Below are positions 3,713-32,538 of a stretch of DNA of 64,000 nucleotides, one piece after another. Positions within the stretch are counted from its first letter, which is position 1, and every line of letters begins with the position of its first letter. The notes under the pieces were generated by a model. The model made no database searches and was not told the origin of the DNA. It saw only the letters and a list, made by a program, of their open reading frames with translations. The stretch is from IMG/VR virus record IMGVR_UViG_3300018080_000121, positions 1-64,000 of that record. The stretch is one strand, 5' to 3'. This DNA is from a virus. The position numbers and the translations under genes are program-made.

Positions 3713-4437
3713 GATGCATGCCTCGCTAACTTGGTTTCTGAATCGGCGAGTTTGTCACGATTTGAAGTAAGCAATCCCTTTGCTCCGGACAATTTTGCAA
3801 TCATATCTTCGGTTCCATAGGTACCACCTAAACCTACTGGTTGTGTTTTATAGTCGTATGCAAAATCAAACTCATCAATTCTTGATTGAATTTCAGAATC
3901 ACTATCCCATCCAACACCATTATATTCGTAGGTTAACACTCCAACTTTCTCAACTCCAGAAGGAATAACTGCATCATCAACAGTGACTAGAGTTAATCCT
4001 ATATAACTTGTAGTGTCATATTCTGAGATTGTTATTGTTGTATGGGATGTTGTTCCCCCTTCATCAAATAAAATGGTTTCACCACTAGGAAATTTTGTAG
4101 TTTGATTTCCGTCGCATGTAAATTGTGTACTTGATATATAGGTTACATTGTTTGTTGAAGTTGTATCGGTGTTGTCAAGATCTATATCTGCAACATACCA
4201 ATCTGTTGCATTAGATACACCAAAATCTCCGTATGTATGAACCATATCGCCCTTGTCAGGAAGTAAATCATTTTCCAAATCATCACAACTGCTTGACATC
4301 GTGTATTCTAATGCTGCTTGTTTTTCTTGTAAGTCAGCAATTTGATCATCAACACTGTTTATTGATGTCTGGACGTCAGCTGCATCAGAAGCTGCAGAAT
4401 CAACCATATCTTTTAAAGTATCAGCTGGATTAGCCAA
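3709..4437 (-). CDS. Probable tail fibre or tail-associated virion protein
   Basis: A 242-residue acidic protein with an N-terminal Ala/Asp/Gln-rich coiled coil (residues about 5-50). A long Thr/Asp/Ser-rich beta-type middle follows (residues about 65-175), then a helical C-terminal end. Low aromatic content and repeated TTST and DDTT stretches resemble fibrous adhesin-like virion proteins. A good ribosome binding site (AAGGAGGTGG in the sense direction) precedes the start. The gene lies between a coiled-coil protein and a PAAR tip gene. No family could be named; a fibre or fibre-connector role is inferred from composition and context. Confidence 0.5.
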   Translation of the reverse strand: MANPADTLKDMVDSAASDAADVQTSINSVDDQIADLQEKQAALEYTMSSSCDDLENDLLPDKGDMVHTYGDFGVSNATDWYVADIDLDNTDTTSTNNVTYISSTQFTCDGNQTTKFPSGETILFDEGGTTSHTTITISEYDTTSYIGLTLVTVDDAVIPSGVEKVGVLTYEYNGVGWDSDSEIQSRIDEFDFAYDYKTQPVGLGGTYGTEDMIAKLSGAKGLLTSNRDKLADSETKLARHAS

Positions 4438-4451
4438 CGTTGACCACCTCC

Positions 4452-4685
4452 TTATGAGTTATTTACGGATGGTATTTGATCCATCAATTTATTAATCTCT
4501 GCTTTGAGATTTTCAATTTCAACATTTAACCTTTGTATTTCTGCAAATGCACTCTTTAACATTTCTACATTATGTCTGAGGTTAAGTTTACCATCAGACG
4601 AACCTTGTAATGCAAAGTACTCAAGGTTCGTAATAAGTTGTCGCACTTGCTTTCCATAAACTGCCATCCATGCGGTTTCGTTCAT
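4452..4685 (-). CDS. Small coiled-coil protein
   Basis: A 77-residue helical protein. Residues about 35-70 show heptad-like spacing of Leu, Ile and Met with Glu and Lys between (LKSAFAEIQRLNVEIENLKA), a probable coiled coil. Its start overlaps the stop of the upstream glycosyltransferase by one base and it lies just before the fibre-like gene. It may be a fibre chaperone or a small oligomerising virion component, but nothing in the sequence decides this. Confidence 0.5.
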   Translation of the reverse strand: MNETAWMAVYGKQVRQLITNLEYFALQGSSDGKLNLRHNVEMLKSAFAEIQRLNVEIENLKAEINKLMDQIPSVNNS

Positions 4686-6451
4686 TATCTTCTCCTCTTC
4701 ATTTTCTTTAAAATTCTGTTCATTTCTAAAACAACTCTATCAGGCTTAATATTAAATTTTGGATCATCTAGAAAAGTTGTTGGTGTATTTTTTACATTGT
4801 AGGTTACTGTGTGGGGTTTCTTTTCATTTCCCCATTGTAATGTAGGAGTTCCAATTAAGTTTGATAAATTAGGAATTCCACTTTGACTTCCAATACATAA
4901 AATTGCTCGTCTCAAAACTTCAATTGTTACACCTACAAGAGATGTATTAGCAGGTAACTGAAATTTGTTGATGTCATAATACCTATCTTTTGGATCAGGA
5001 ATATATTCTGGTGCTCTTCCGCATAACACAAAGGAATATCTATTTCTAAGATTCTCAATCAAATCGTAAAATTCTTTCCAGTTATTCCAGTTTCTCTTCT
5101 TATTATGACGTCTAAATCTTGGACCTAATACAATTACTGGTTTATCACTTGGAATCATTTTATCTACAAATGTTTTGTTTTGAGGTCTGGGTTTAAAGTT
5201 AAAGATTTTTTGTGCGTCTGGGAATTGTCCCTTCTCAGTATATCTTCTAGCACCAATCCTTGGGACTATATGTTCGAGAATTGTATATTCCGCAGAATAT
5301 TTCGCTCGAAAATTATGTACCAGTTGTTTATATTTTTGATCAGGGAACCCTGTTAGTTTTAAACAATCAGATGTATATTTTTGGAAGTCACCTGAAATCT
5401 CAAGCGGTATCAACTCATCAGCGTATTTTCCATATAAGTCAAAACGATCTTCCCGAGTGTATACTATTAATTTTGCACCTTTGTGTTTATGCTTCTTATA
5501 CCATAACACATGAGGCGCAAATCTTAAAAGTTCCCATCCAAACTCACCGAGAAATGGGCCAGCTAAAATTGCATATTTTGTTTTTTGAGTATGAATATTC
5601 TCGGATTTTTCTTCCTCTGTTATCACGGGATTCTTGTCGATTCTCTTATCTCCTTTCACCATGTTATAAAATTCATCAAATGTCATCGATTCAACTTTTC
5701 GATCTGAATTAGCATACTTGATCTTTTCCATTCTTTTTGCGTCAGACCCAAAACCAATGACATTACAAATGCTTCCTACATATTTTCCACTATTTAAAGC
5801 AAGTACTTTTTTAACTCCAAGTATATAAGGTTGTCCCTTAGTTAATCTATCCATCTTAACCCAGTAATTTTGATCGTGTTTTTTACAAAGACCAACTAAT
5901 GGACCAAGATCAAGATACCCAACATCTCTAAAGAAGTTTGGTCTAACAGTCCAAAAAGCACTTCCGCCCAATTTACCAAGGTATGCTTTGTATCCCGCAA
6001 TTCTTGTAGAAATAATAGAACCAAATTTTATGGCGCTAGGATGCTGACTAATAACTTTAACATTCTCCATTCGATGACGTTTGACATCTCTCCAAGCCTT
6101 TTTAATTACTTCATCCCAGTCTGGAGTAACTAACATATCATTATCAAGAAATAACAAGAAATCAGTCTTGTCTTTCTTTGGGTCTTGCTCATGGTTTTGA
6201 CCAAATTGATTCAATGCTGCAGCTTTCGAGAAAGCTTCATGTGTAGACGCTTTTGTGTTAAAAGTAACTTGGGAAATCATTCCCTCCCGGAACAACTTCG
6301 AAAAATAATCAAAGTGTTCTTGGAGTTTATAGTTAGTAATATTATCATAAACGTACAATTGGAATGGATTTTTAGTGTGTTTATGTAAAGCCTCTATTAC
6401 TTTTTTAGTTACTGCTAATCGGTTTCGGACGCACAGACCTATCTTTATCAT
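4685..6451 (-). CDS. Two-domain glycosyltransferase (GT-A plus GT-B-like)
   Basis: A 588-residue fusion. Residues 1 to about 270 form a GT-A family 2-like domain beginning MIKIGLCVRNRLAVTKKVI, with the metal-binding DND at 103-105 (FLDNDMLVTPDW). From about 290 a second domain begins with AILAGPFLGEFGWELLRFAP and ends with a helix-rich region containing SQSGIPNLSNLIGTPTLQWG. This is typical of GT-B sugar-nucleotide enzymes and resembles the donor site of GT9 proteins. The ATG at 6451 is preferred over an upstream in-frame TTG. It overlaps the GT9 gene by 47 nt. Two consecutive transfer reactions on one glycan are inferred. Confidence 0.75.
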   Translation of the reverse strand: MIKIGLCVRNRLAVTKKVIEALHKHTKNPFQLYVYDNITNYKLQEHFDYFSKLFREGMISQVTFNTKASTHEAFSKAAALNQFGQNHEQDPKKDKTDFLLFLDNDMLVTPDWDEVIKKAWRDVKRHRMENVKVISQHPSAIKFGSIISTRIAGYKAYLGKLGGSAFWTVRPNFFRDVGYLDLGPLVGLCKKHDQNYWVKMDRLTKGQPYILGVKKVLALNSGKYVGSICNVIGFGSDAKRMEKIKYANSDRKVESMTFDEFYNMVKGDKRIDKNPVITEEEKSENIHTQKTKYAILAGPFLGEFGWELLRFAPHVLWYKKHKHKGAKLIVYTREDRFDLYGKYADELIPLEISGDFQKYTSDCLKLTGFPDQKYKQLVHNFRAKYSAEYTILEHIVPRIGARRYTEKGQFPDAQKIFNFKPRPQNKTFVDKMIPSDKPVIVLGPRFRRHNKKRNWNNWKEFYDLIENLRNRYSFVLCGRAPEYIPDPKDRYYDINKFQLPANTSLVGVTIEVLRRAILCIGSQSGIPNLSNLIGTPTLQWGNEKKPHTVTYNVKNTPTTFLDDPKFNIKPDRVVLEMNRILKKMKRRR

Positions 6452-27020: not shown

Positions 27021-27419
27021 ATGAGCCGTTCAAAAGTAAAGAAGTACCTTGGAAATATCTTCCGAGAAGACGTTGGTGGGAAATCTATAAAAGATAAAAT
27101 TGTTAATTTCTTTGTAAAGAATCCATATCCGGATGATGATCAAGTTCATAAATTTGCAGAGAAAGAGGGAATCAATCCACATCGTCTGGAATCTTATATC
27201 TATTCTCTCTTGTCGGACTTTATTACTGGTGTTGGCAAACATGATCACATTCCAGATACTAAGTTTGATGCTAATGAATTGGAGATGGGAATTGAAGTAG
27301 AGAAGGAACATACAGATTCAGAAACCATCTCAAAATCAATCGCAAAAGACCATTTGATGGAATGTCCTACATATTACACTCGTCTCGCAAAGATGGAAAA
27401 AGAATGCGAAGAAAGATAG
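27021..27419 (+). CDS. DUF5661-like protein
   Basis: A 132-residue protein. The C-terminal half reads GVGKHDHIPDTKFDANELEM and then GIEVEKEHTDSETISKSIAK, ending DHLMECPTYYTRLAKME, as in the DUF5661 family found in many phages (recalled). The His/Glu/Asp pattern suggests metal binding. The N-terminal part (VKKYLGNIFREDVGGKS) is basic. It follows the ferritin-like gene by one base, which raises the possibility that both act together. Confidence 0.65.
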   Translation: MSRSKVKKYLGNIFREDVGGKSIKDKIVNFFVKNPYPDDDQVHKFAEKEGINPHRLESYIYSLLSDFITGVGKHDHIPDTKFDANELEMGIEVEKEHTDSETISKSIAKDHLMECPTYYTRLAKMEKECEER

Positions 27420-27519: not shown

Positions 27520-29247
27520 ATGGGAAAAGTTGTATTGTCGGATAACGCTACACAAGTTGCTGAAAGTAGATACTTTATGGACGGAGAAAATTGGATGTCA
27601 TGTACTCACCGCGTAGCAAGCGTGATATCAACACCAGAAAATGAACGACAAAAGTATCTGGATGCTTTCCATGAAATGATTCATAATATGGATTTTCTTC
27701 CTGGTGGAAGAATATTGAGAAATTGCGGGCGACCAAGGGGGTCGCTTTTTAACTGTTACCATCTCCCAATAGGTGATAGCATTGAGGAGATTGGTCAGTT
27801 AATTAAGGACGCATTAATTCTCTGGTCAGAAGGCGGTGGTGTTGGTGTAAACTTTTCACCATTACGACCAAGGGGAGATAAAATTTTTGGAAAGGGTGGA
27901 ACATCATCAGGTTTAGTCAGTTTTATCCAAGCTACGGATGCTGTTGCTGAGACCATTGAAAGTGGGGGAAGCAGAAGAGCAGCAGCTATCGCTCATGTAG
28001 ATGTGTCACATCCAGAGGTGATGGATTTTATTGACGCTAAGTTGGTGGATGGAAGGATCACACACTTTAATATTTCTGTATCTGTAAATGGCAAATTTCT
28101 TGAAGCAGTAGAAGCTGATGGGGATTGGGAATTCAAATTCAAACAGAGAAGTTATGGTAAGGTAAAAGCTAGAGTTATTTGGGATAAAATTGTTGAGAAT
28201 ATGGTAAAGTGTGCTGAACCAGGTTTAATCAACTGGGACAACTTTTCAAAGAACAACTCGTATTATTTTGAACCTGTATTGGGAACTAATCCCTGTGGAG
28301 AAACAACACTTGGACCTTATGGTGTATGCGACCTAGGTTCATTAGTTCTTCCAAATTTTATCACAGGTAAAGTAAACACAAATTGGCAAAAACTAGAAAG
28401 AACAATTAAACTTGCAGTAAGATTTTTAGACAACGTCATTGACGTTAATAAGTATACCTTAAAAGACATTGATATTAATGCCCATAAATCTAGGAGAATT
28501 GGGATTGGAGTACTTGGGCTTGCAGAATATTTATTTGCAAAGAAATTGAGATATGGGAGTGAAAGAGCAATTACAGAAATTGAAAGATTGATGCAATTCA
28601 TTAGAAATGCTTGTTATGTAGCTTCAATTGAACTAGCAGCAGAAAAAGGTTCATTCCCTGCATTTGATCCTATTCAACATAAGAAAGCTTCGTTCGTAAG
28701 AAAACTTCCCGCCAGAATTCGAGCAGACATAAAGAACTTTGGTATTAGGAATACCACGTTAATGGCGATTGCTCCAAATGGTACGATCTCCCTTTTAGCT
28801 GACTATACAGGTAGTGGGGAACCACTATTTGCTAAAGCGTATATGCGACATGACCGTGTTGGAGATAGAATGTATATTCATCCTATCTATGAAGAGATGT
28901 TAAAATCAAGAGAAGAAATTCCAAATTGGTTTGTAGATACATTTGATTTATCTCCTACTGATCATTTTGAAGTTCAGGTCGCGCTACAGAAATATAATGA
29001 TGGGTCGGTTTCGAAAACAATCAATTTACCACATGAAACTACCCCAGATGAGCTGAGTGCCTTATTGTTAGAGTACATTACAGATCTGAAAGGTGTTACC
29101 GTCTATCGAGACGGATGTAGAGATGGACAACCACTTCGCCGTGTTACAGAGGAGGATGCTCGAGCCTACCTAGAGAAAAATGGAAAGATTGAGTCAAATC
29201 GAACAGAGGATGATGTTCGTTGTGTGAATGGTTCATGTGAATTATAA
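27520..29247 (+). CDS. nrdJ: Class II (adenosylcobalamin-dependent) ribonucleotide reductase
   Basis: A 575-residue catalytic subunit that reduces ribonucleotides to deoxyribonucleotides. Key parts are the first redox cysteine (SLFNCYH, C79), the substrate-loop segment SEGGGVGVNFSPLRPRGD, and the radical-site motif NPCGE (C259, E261). Also present are APNGTISLLA and a C-terminal pair CVNGSC (C568, C573) for re-reduction by thioredoxin. No NrdB partner or activase is nearby, which fits class II enzymes that need vitamin B12. No cobalamin riboswitch is visible upstream. Confidence 0.9.
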   Translation: MGKVVLSDNATQVAESRYFMDGENWMSCTHRVASVISTPENERQKYLDAFHEMIHNMDFLPGGRILRNCGRPRGSLFNCYHLPIGDSIEEIGQLIKDALILWSEGGGVGVNFSPLRPRGDKIFGKGGTSSGLVSFIQATDAVAETIESGGSRRAAAIAHVDVSHPEVMDFIDAKLVDGRITHFNISVSVNGKFLEAVEADGDWEFKFKQRSYGKVKARVIWDKIVENMVKCAEPGLINWDNFSKNNSYYFEPVLGTNPCGETTLGPYGVCDLGSLVLPNFITGKVNTNWQKLERTIKLAVRFLDNVIDVNKYTLKDIDINAHKSRRIGIGVLGLAEYLFAKKLRYGSERAITEIERLMQFIRNACYVASIELAAEKGSFPAFDPIQHKKASFVRKLPARIRADIKNFGIRNTTLMAIAPNGTISLLADYTGSGEPLFAKAYMRHDRVGDRMYIHPIYEEMLKSREEIPNWFVDTFDLSPTDHFEVQVALQKYNDGSVSKTINLPHETTPDELSALLLEYITDLKGVTVYRDGCRDGQPLRRVTEEDARAYLEKNGKIESNRTEDDVRCVNGSCEL

Positions 29248-29255
29248 AACGGGAG

Positions 29256-29271
29256 TCTCTAGACGCAGAGA
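29256..29271 (+). repeat. 16-bp inverted repeat, left copy
   Basis: TCTCTAGACGCAGAGA, 9 bases after the nrdJ stop. Its perfect reverse complement is at 29887-29902, so the two copies bracket the outer-membrane-protein gene. Each copy is itself a 5-bp hairpin (TCTCT/AGAGA) with a 6-nt loop. Confidence 0.85.
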
Positions 29272-29302
29272 TCCGAAATAAAACACAGGAGGAAATGTAG
29301 TA

Positions 29303-29872
29303 ATGAAGATGTTTAAATTATTTGGAATTTTTACAATTGTAGTTGCACTTATGTGCGCAGTACCTGCATTCGCAACAGAGGATGTAAAAGCAGTACCTGA
29401 TTCAGGCAACCCTGGTAAAATAGGGTTTGGATTTCATACATTAAGTTCTACTGAAGATACTTACGCGGGTGTAAGTATCCGAGGTTGGACTGACAGCTGG
29501 CTAGGAATGGAAGGAAATTTTTATTATTCAAATGCAGAAGTTAAAAATGAACAAGGTGTTCAAGCCGACGGAGATCTTGCGTTGTATGGCGTGAAGTTGA
29601 TGGCGGCTCCAGTACGTGCTGAACAATCTAAGTTTTATTTCTTTGGCGAAGGATTATGGGGTAAAATTGACGACATTGCTATTTCTGATAAAGCAGATAT
29701 AGCGACCTATGGCGCCGGTTTTGGTTTTGAATGGAACTTTGCTGGAGTACCAGAACTTGGAATTGATATTGAAACCGGGTATTATCTTACTGATACAGAT
29801 GGTACCATTGAACTTGAGAATGAAGATCAAGAGGTTAAAGTCGGCTTCGGAATGCACTATTACTTCGACTAA
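29303..29872 (+). CDS. Outer-membrane beta-barrel protein with signal peptide
   Basis: A 189-residue protein with a typical signal peptide (MKMFKLFGIFTIVVALM, cleavage after AFA at 25). Alternating aromatic strands follow (IGFGFHTLSS, GMEGNFYYSNAE, SKFYFFGEGLWG, YGAGFGFEWNF, IDIETGYYLTD) and it ends VGFGMHYYFD. This is an eight-stranded OmpX-like barrel layout; the last residue is Asp after the usual terminal Phe. It would be exported to the host outer membrane, possibly changing surface receptors or blocking superinfection. A 16-bp inverted repeat flanks the gene. Confidence 0.75.
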   Translation: MKMFKLFGIFTIVVALMCAVPAFATEDVKAVPDSGNPGKIGFGFHTLSSTEDTYAGVSIRGWTDSWLGMEGNFYYSNAEVKNEQGVQADGDLALYGVKLMAAPVRAEQSKFYFFGEGLWGKIDDIAISDKADIATYGAGFGFEWNFAGVPELGIDIETGYYLTDTDGTIELENEDQEVKVGFGMHYYFD

Positions 29873-29886
29873 CCATTAATCTAATT

Positions 29887-29902
29887 TCTCTGCGTCTAGA
29901 GA
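29887..29902 (+). repeat. 16-bp inverted repeat, right copy
   Basis: TCTCTGCGTCTAGAGA, the exact reverse complement of 29256-29271, lying between the stop of the beta-barrel gene and the next start. The match does not extend beyond 16 bp on either side. Confidence 0.85.
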
Positions 29903-29927
29903 GTTTCGTTTGTAGAAAGGAGTACAT

Positions 29928-30332
29928 ATGGAATCAAAAATTAAGCAATTAGAAAAATGGATTAAAGAAGAACTGTGTCGATGGACTACTTATGAAAGAT
30001 TAGTTGATGATGTAAGTGGTGAGGGTAGTGATGTAGAACGAAAGTGGAGCTTTAAAATATATACTGATAGGTACGTATATAGATTTATAGCCATCGACCG
30101 ATATGGTAAAGACGGATATCTTGGTTGTCAAGTATCCTCCAGAAAAAAGAGAGCTGGTGAAAGCTGGACGAGGGGGAATGATTTACCTGATGGTCCTTTT
30201 ACTAGAGAAACGTGGGAGAGAATTAAAAATGATATGATTGGTTGGGAAATCGTCCCGACTGCATTTTACCCAAACCCTGAAACACTTTCTAGTGAACCAG
30301 CTCAAACAGTAGAGGAGGGAATTGGATGTTAA
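29928..30332 (+). CDS. Unknown protein, 134 aa
   Basis: A protein with an AAAGGAG ribosome binding site. The middle part is beta-rich (KWSFKIYTDRYVYRFIAIDR, GYLGCQVSSRK), and the C-terminal part is Trp- and Pro-rich (FTRETWERIKNDMIGWEIVP). It overlaps the next gene by 7 nt. No family recognised. Confidence 0.5.
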   Translation: MESKIKQLEKWIKEELCRWTTYERLVDDVSGEGSDVERKWSFKIYTDRYVYRFIAIDRYGKDGYLGCQVSSRKKRAGESWTRGNDLPDGPFTRETWERIKNDMIGWEIVPTAFYPNPETLSSEPAQTVEEGIGC

Positions 30333-32238: not shown

Positions 32239-32538
32239 ATGAAGCAGATGTCAGACTTGCTGCGCGATTATGTTGAAGATACCGTTAAACGACTTGTGGA
32301 CAACCCAAACGAAGTCTCGATTTTTATTACCGTATCTACAAAATCAGTGATTGTACAAATAAAGAGTAAACAAGAAGATCTGGGAAAAATCATTGGTAAG
32401 AAAGGTAGAACCATTGATGCTCTTAAGATCATAACATTAGCAATAAAAAACACACATTTTCCACGAGATACGCGGCGTGTGTCGTTGGAAATAATTGAGG
32501 ATGAAAACTCAAATTTTATGGATCTAAATAAAGGCTAG
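32239..32538 (+). CDS. KH-domain RNA-binding protein (KhpA-like)
   Basis: A 99-residue type II-like KH protein with the GxxG loop in IIGKKGRTIDALK (51-63) and the flanking strand VIVQIKSKQEDLG. Size and layout resemble bacterial KhpA, a small global RNA-binding protein. It leads an operon after a promoter-like motif and has a GGGGGAAATG leader. Possible roles are regulation of phage or host mRNAs. It could be relevant to the structured RNA at 52.3 kb (speculation). Confidence 0.75.
   Translation: MKQMSDLLRDYVEDTVKRLVDNPNEVSIFITVSTKSVIVQIKSKQEDLGKIIGKKGRTIDALKIITLAIKNTHFPRDTRRVSLEIIEDENSNFMDLNKG

Follow-up and report, generated by a model that had tools for sequence, protein, structure and literature searches.

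An inverted repeat flanking a phage outer-membrane-protein gene probably provides the arms of a long-range mRNA helix

The window analysed here covers the initial 64 kb of a virus record of 121,292 b with a G+C content of 37%. Three consecutive genes on the + strand, namely nrdJ, a gene for a predicted outer-membrane protein (OMP) and a gene for a 134-aa protein, form the locus together with the repeats on either side of the OMP gene, and the following features can be assigned:

27520..29247, + strand: nrdJ, the upstream gene, encoding a class II-like ribonucleotide reductase of 575 aa (PF02867, E 1.6e-102)
29247..29271, + strand: candidate 5' arm of a long-range helix, AAACGGGAGTCTCTAGACGCAGAGA, in which 24 of 25 columns can pair with 29887-29911, G-U counted
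29287..29292, + strand: Shine-Dalgarno sequence AGGAGG of the OMP gene, assigned from the sequence, inside the loop and outside the helix, 16 nt past the 5' arm
29303..29872, + strand: predicted beta-barrel outer-membrane protein of 189 aa with a signal-like N terminus (PF13505, structure model, Foldseek)
29887..29911, + strand: candidate 3' arm of the long-range helix, TCTCTGCGTCTAGAGAGTTTCGTTT, with the core at 29888-29901
29916..29922, + strand: Shine-Dalgarno sequence AAAGGAG of the 134-aa gene, assigned from the sequence, about 4-5 nt past the 3' arm
29928..30332, + strand: downstream gene, 134 aa, without a Pfam or PHROG match

The protein encoded between the repeats matches OMP_b-brl (PF13505) with an E-value of 2.9e-8, and its structure model, which is of moderate confidence (mean pLDDT 66, pTM 0.60), contains eight strands. 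In a Foldseek search the nearest structures were Ail, OmpA, OprF, OmpX and NspA (E 1.8e-5 to 2.3e-4), with a TM-score of up to 0.56 of the query. The N terminus forms a signal-like helix that was called as a signal peptide by eye, such that the product is predicted to belong with the eight-stranded barrels of the OmpA/OmpX/Ail type. This agrees with the initial annotation, which had read the gene as encoding a signal-bearing beta-barrel. Among annotated phages neither DNA similarity to the locus nor protein similarity to the OMP was found.

The left repeat, TCTCTAGACGCAGAGA, occupies positions 29256-29271 of the + strand, and positions 29887-29902 are its exact reverse complement, so that the two are indeed perfect inverted 16-bp copies around a single gene, as had been described. 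A search of the whole 121,292-b record that allowed up to two mismatches returned just these two copies, one per strand. Each copy can also fold locally, as had likewise been noted, into a small hairpin of 5-7 bp (-3.7 to -5.1 kcal/mol) with a loop of 6 nt, either AGACGC or GCGUCU, and each loop is complementary to the loop of the other arm. On the basis of the sequence the paired region exceeds the 16-bp repeats and joins 29247-29271 with 29887-29911. The first base of the 5' arm is also the final base of the nrdJ stop codon, and the arm includes a core of 14 nt (29257-29270). At the gathering cut-offs of Rfam the window gave no match to a known RNA family.

Queries of viral contigs and of genome contigs recovered OMP relatives in two further phages only, L003 (IMGVR_UViG_3300017987_005478, 127,917 b) and L036 (IMGVR_UViG_3300017989_000062, 149,482 b), whose orthologues are 79% and 71% identical, respectively. 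In both, the identical 14-nt core CTCTAGACGCAGAG flanks the OMP gene and occurs once per strand in the genome, and the repeat-flanked gene has the same orientation in all three phages. Among the three, identity at the four-fold-degenerate positions of nrdJ and omp has fallen to 32-51%, which is near synonymous saturation, so that the unchanged 14-mers at six sites can be attributed to selection. The 16-mer together with the following AGGAG is absent from other IMG/VR contigs. The remaining exact 16-mer matches in IMG/VR (L004-L012) are about as numerous as expected by chance for a collection of such size, by our own estimate, and exact inverted partners are absent from the sequence examined, the partner in L004 carrying three mismatches. 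A second inverted repeat, TGAGAATCTCATA / TGAGAATCTCGTA, is present with equal spacing in the genomes of both relatives (L057, 2646-2980; G002, 87742-88076); it lies within a topoisomerase-like coding gene (G001; L057) and was set aside, as it probably reflects coding conservation.

The predicted helix comprises 24 pairs in 25 columns in the window phage, and L003 and L036 reach 23-24 pairs. In each of the three, a stem of at least about 20 bp could thus close a loop of some 600-615 nt, within which lie the complete OMP gene and its ribosome-binding site. Arm pairs were counted by script in a fixed register from the core; the MAFFT alignment of the arms had gaps. In the first ten outer columns 26 of the 30 cells pair across the three phages, compared to a mean of 16.9 in within-sequence shuffles of these columns, which reached 26 in 16 of 200,000 cases, and sliding the register by 1-3 positions leaves 12-19 outer cells paired. 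Both sides have changed with pairing kept in outer columns 3, 6, 7 and 10 (column 3 being A-U, C-G and U-A), one-sided changes via G-U are seen in columns 4 and 5, and columns 1 and 2, beside the core, are often unpaired. The four two-sided columns suggest compensatory change on the transcribed strand, within a set of three sequences, and this covariation comprises few events in three phages, of which L003 and L036 are closer to each other.

The outer arms contain six G-U wobbles on the coding strand and no A-C, which is the wobble signature expected if the other strand were the pairing RNA. Folded as a duplex, the arms are predicted to reach -38.4, -38.7 and -32.0 kcal/mol on the coding strand, but -30.9, -28.4 and -27.3 kcal/mol on the opposite one. 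Outer pairing within each phage (8-9 of 10) equals or exceeds pairing across phages, with values of 4-7 for combinations of the window phage with its relatives. The stem is present in both the MFE and the centroid folds of all three mRNAs, with pair probabilities mostly >0.95 and an ensemble gain of 12-14 kcal/mol. By contrast to the outer arms, the core does not vary: 0 of its 14 columns have changed versus 6 of 8 well-paired outer columns (Fisher p 0.0004), and for the hairpin loop columns alone the count is 0 of 6 (p 0.01). Because the core is invariant while the outer columns vary, pairing alone is insufficient to account for it. This invariance, with the loop included, points to an added sequence-specific role, and recognition of the core by some protein or RNA, or a function at the DNA level, may add to or underlie the role of the RNA. 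An alternation between local and long-range folds would constrain the stem of the hairpin, not its loop.

The nrdJ product is 89% identical to its L003 counterpart, and the operon common to the relatives consists of nrdJ, the 134-aa gene, a 69-aa gene, a gene of about 140 aa and a RecA/UvsX-like gene. The slot after nrdJ holds the OMP unit in the window phage, L003 and L036, and in L018 a phosphoribosyltransferase-domain gene (3973-4347) in its place; the 134-aa gene adjoins the OMP cassette in L003 and L036, and in L018 it follows the phosphoribosyltransferase gene. Both units are missing after nrdJ in L019 and L020, which lack the 134-aa gene too. A profile search of 12 such records, run without a positive control, detected no OMP relative. 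Judged from these gene orders, the OMP gene is an accessory insertion within an otherwise conserved operon, and the view of the initial annotation that the unit is a self-contained cassette is borne out by the more distant relatives, in which the slot carries the phosphoribosyltransferase gene or nothing.

In L036 a NUMOD3 ORF (3986-4936) parts nrdJ from the left repeat, which still lies directly before the OMP gene, and the arms would therefore belong to the OMP gene and not to nrdJ. NUMOD3 is typical of homing endonucleases, and homing-endonuclease-like ORFs are located at differing operon junctions in L036 (the NUMOD3 ORF), L003 (7789-8685) and L019 (8699-9619). Two other genes of the neighbourhood may be mentioned. 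A DUF5661 gene lies between a rubrerythrin-like gene and nrdJ in the window (27021-27419) and is missing there in L003 and L036. The same operon encodes a KH-domain RNA-binding protein of the KhpA/KhpB type (32239-32538; PF13083, E 3.8e-17), with apparent counterparts in L003, L036, L018 and L020, which is a possible phage RNA chaperone. No intrinsic terminator was found on the coding strand between 27400 and 31000 and no consensus promoter between nrdJ and the OMP gene, such consensus scans being weak evidence.

Accessory genes must be expressed without upsetting the operon that hosts them, for which the textbook answer is a promoter and a terminator of their own. The conservation seen here points to an RNA answer, namely a helix around one complete gene, similar to the stems that release rRNAs. 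We propose that the two repeats pair with each other over a long range in the mRNA of the coding strand, forming a helix with the whole OMP gene and its ribosome-binding site in the loop, and that this helix most likely serves as an RNase III processing or insulation element, a reading to which we assign a probability of about 0.55. Among the possibilities raised by the initial annotation, RNA stems that separate the mRNA are thereby favoured, given the covarying pairs, the restriction of G-U to the coding strand and the presence of the stem in the MFE and centroid folds. A processing or insulation role is likely given that nrdJ, omp and the genes after them share one strand and no strong signal for a promoter or terminator was found between them. 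A separating bracket also fits the placement of the arms, since they start at the nrdJ stop codon, end before the next ribosome-binding site and leave that of the OMP gene uncovered.

The arms may fold first as small hairpins, whose complementary 6-nt loops would touch and start the long-range pairing across 600 nt. The hairpin-closing pair gives slight support to such a loop-loop start, as in L003 and L036 it is still locally paired (A-U in place of U-A on the left, U-G in place of U-A on the right) with its long-range partner lost. RNase III, which is specific for double strands, would then cut the helix and yield a separate OMP mRNA, so that the accessory message would be uncoupled from the nucleotide-metabolism operon. 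Neither the window phage nor L003 or L036 encodes an RNase III, and the host enzyme is therefore assumed. Whereas the arms, their conservation, covariation and strand bias and the accessory nature of the gene are drawn directly from the sequences, the formation of the helix in vivo, its cleavage by RNase III, the loop-loop nucleation and an effect on expression are what we infer from them.

The length of the repeat by itself is not beyond chance: when the whole genome was randomised 60 times by a first-order Markov model, the longest perfect inverted pair with copies no more than 3 kb apart measured 13-17 bp, and 11 of the 60 sequences reached 16 bp or more. It is the conservation that constitutes the evidence. 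The core, its place and its orientation are kept in three diverged phages, and when all one- to three-gene brackets (about 100 per genome) were ranked by an ungapped helix score, the helix around the OMP gene came first in all three genomes (51 vs 27, 38.5 vs 30.5 and 47 vs 26.5 for the runner-up). The best bracket in shuffled genomes scored 30.5 and the best of 117 brackets at 18 related or control loci 34; an earlier energy ranking of whole-gap duplexes was discarded, since it was dominated by long gaps. A chance inverted repeat near a gene is thus exceedingly improbable. A role of the 14-bp core as a DNA-level site, be it for protein binding, for recombination or as the end of a mobile cassette, with copies in inverted orientation and RNA pairing as a by-product, would account for the identity of the core and its loop at six sites amid four-fold sites of 32-51% identity, which suggests sequence-specific recognition, and for the accessory nature of the OMP unit, which is absent from L018-L020. 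It explains neither the confinement of G-U wobbles to the coding strand (six, against none on the other) nor the covariation of the outer pairs, and the 16-mer with AGGAG occurs in no further IMG/VR contig. Phage_integrase (PF00589) and Resolvase (PF00239) domains were absent from the window phage, L003 and L036 in searches whose controls matched, and visual inspection beyond the arms revealed no clear target-site duplication. The transposon-like ends considered in the initial annotation thus far have no positive support. The suggestion of the initial annotation that the repeats are sites of inversion or recombination is not upheld, as no recombinase domain and no inverted relative was found and the unit occurs with the same flanks in a single orientation, the very pattern that had been named there as speaking against it. 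We therefore consider a DNA-level site improbable as the main explanation.

A closer competitor in kind accepts the helix as real and assigns to it protection or control, such that the joining of the 5' and 3' UTRs slows the decay of the OMP mRNA, or a switch between the helix and the local hairpins tunes translation or transcription past the gene. The anatomy is the same as that of the 5'-3' UTR pairing of icaR (PMC3868564), and the local hairpin-closing pair is kept in L003 and L036 despite the lost long-range pair. By contrast, the local hairpins reach only -3.7 to -5.1 kcal/mol, which is weak compared to the -32 to -39 kcal/mol of the helix, and occlusion of the Shine-Dalgarno sequence as in icaR is not predicted: the OMP site lies outside the helix, and its accessibility with and without the helix is nearly equal (0.57 vs 0.65, 0.52 vs 0.59 and 0.79 vs 0.71). 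Occlusion was thus rejected, and protection or control as a whole appears unlikely, if still deserving of attention. Going beyond the processing element favoured here, the unit could be a portable RNA insulator, in which a gene travels with a two-arm element, a loop-nucleated helix allows its mRNA to be excised from any operon and the core is read by a further factor; this extension is speculative. If the RNA bracket is confirmed, phage genomes could be searched for RNA-insulated genes by a simple rule, and engineered operons would gain a compact element to keep messages apart.

Morons of phages are, like the OMP unit, accessory genes inserted into conserved operons, and the OMP itself may be likened to Lom, which we take to be a comparable small outer-membrane barrel of a phage. 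Morons are usually described with a promoter and a terminator of their own, whereas neither was found for the OMP unit by the scans used here. In E. coli, RNase III cuts the duplexes that flank the 16S and 23S rRNAs, and there, as proposed for the phage arms, distant complementary flanks close over an RNA for its release from a longer transcript (PMC8708148). The phage helix differs in that it encloses a protein-coding gene and has an invariant, partly self-complementary core, with cleavage being presumed. In Bacillus subtilis, RNase III cleaves mRNA duplexes that form over long distances; they measure 10-36 bp, the cuts lie up to 505 nt apart, and the targets in priA, yqeU, atpA and asnB are, as in the phage, intramolecular duplexes that span hundreds of nucleotides (PMC11780869); by contrast, the phage helix encloses an entire operon gene and is conserved with covariation. 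In icaR of Staphylococcus aureus, sequences flanking one ORF pair within the same mRNA, as in the phage OMP mRNA, and this pairing of the 5'-UTR with the 3'-UTR blocks the Shine-Dalgarno sequence and makes an RNase III site (PMC3868564), while the phage helix leaves the Shine-Dalgarno sequence of the OMP gene free. A limited literature search found no description of a gene-enclosing helix in a phage. Long-range RNase III targets and the pairing of 5' with 3' UTRs are thus already known, and what the present case would add is a helix that is conserved and closes around a single accessory gene in a phage operon.
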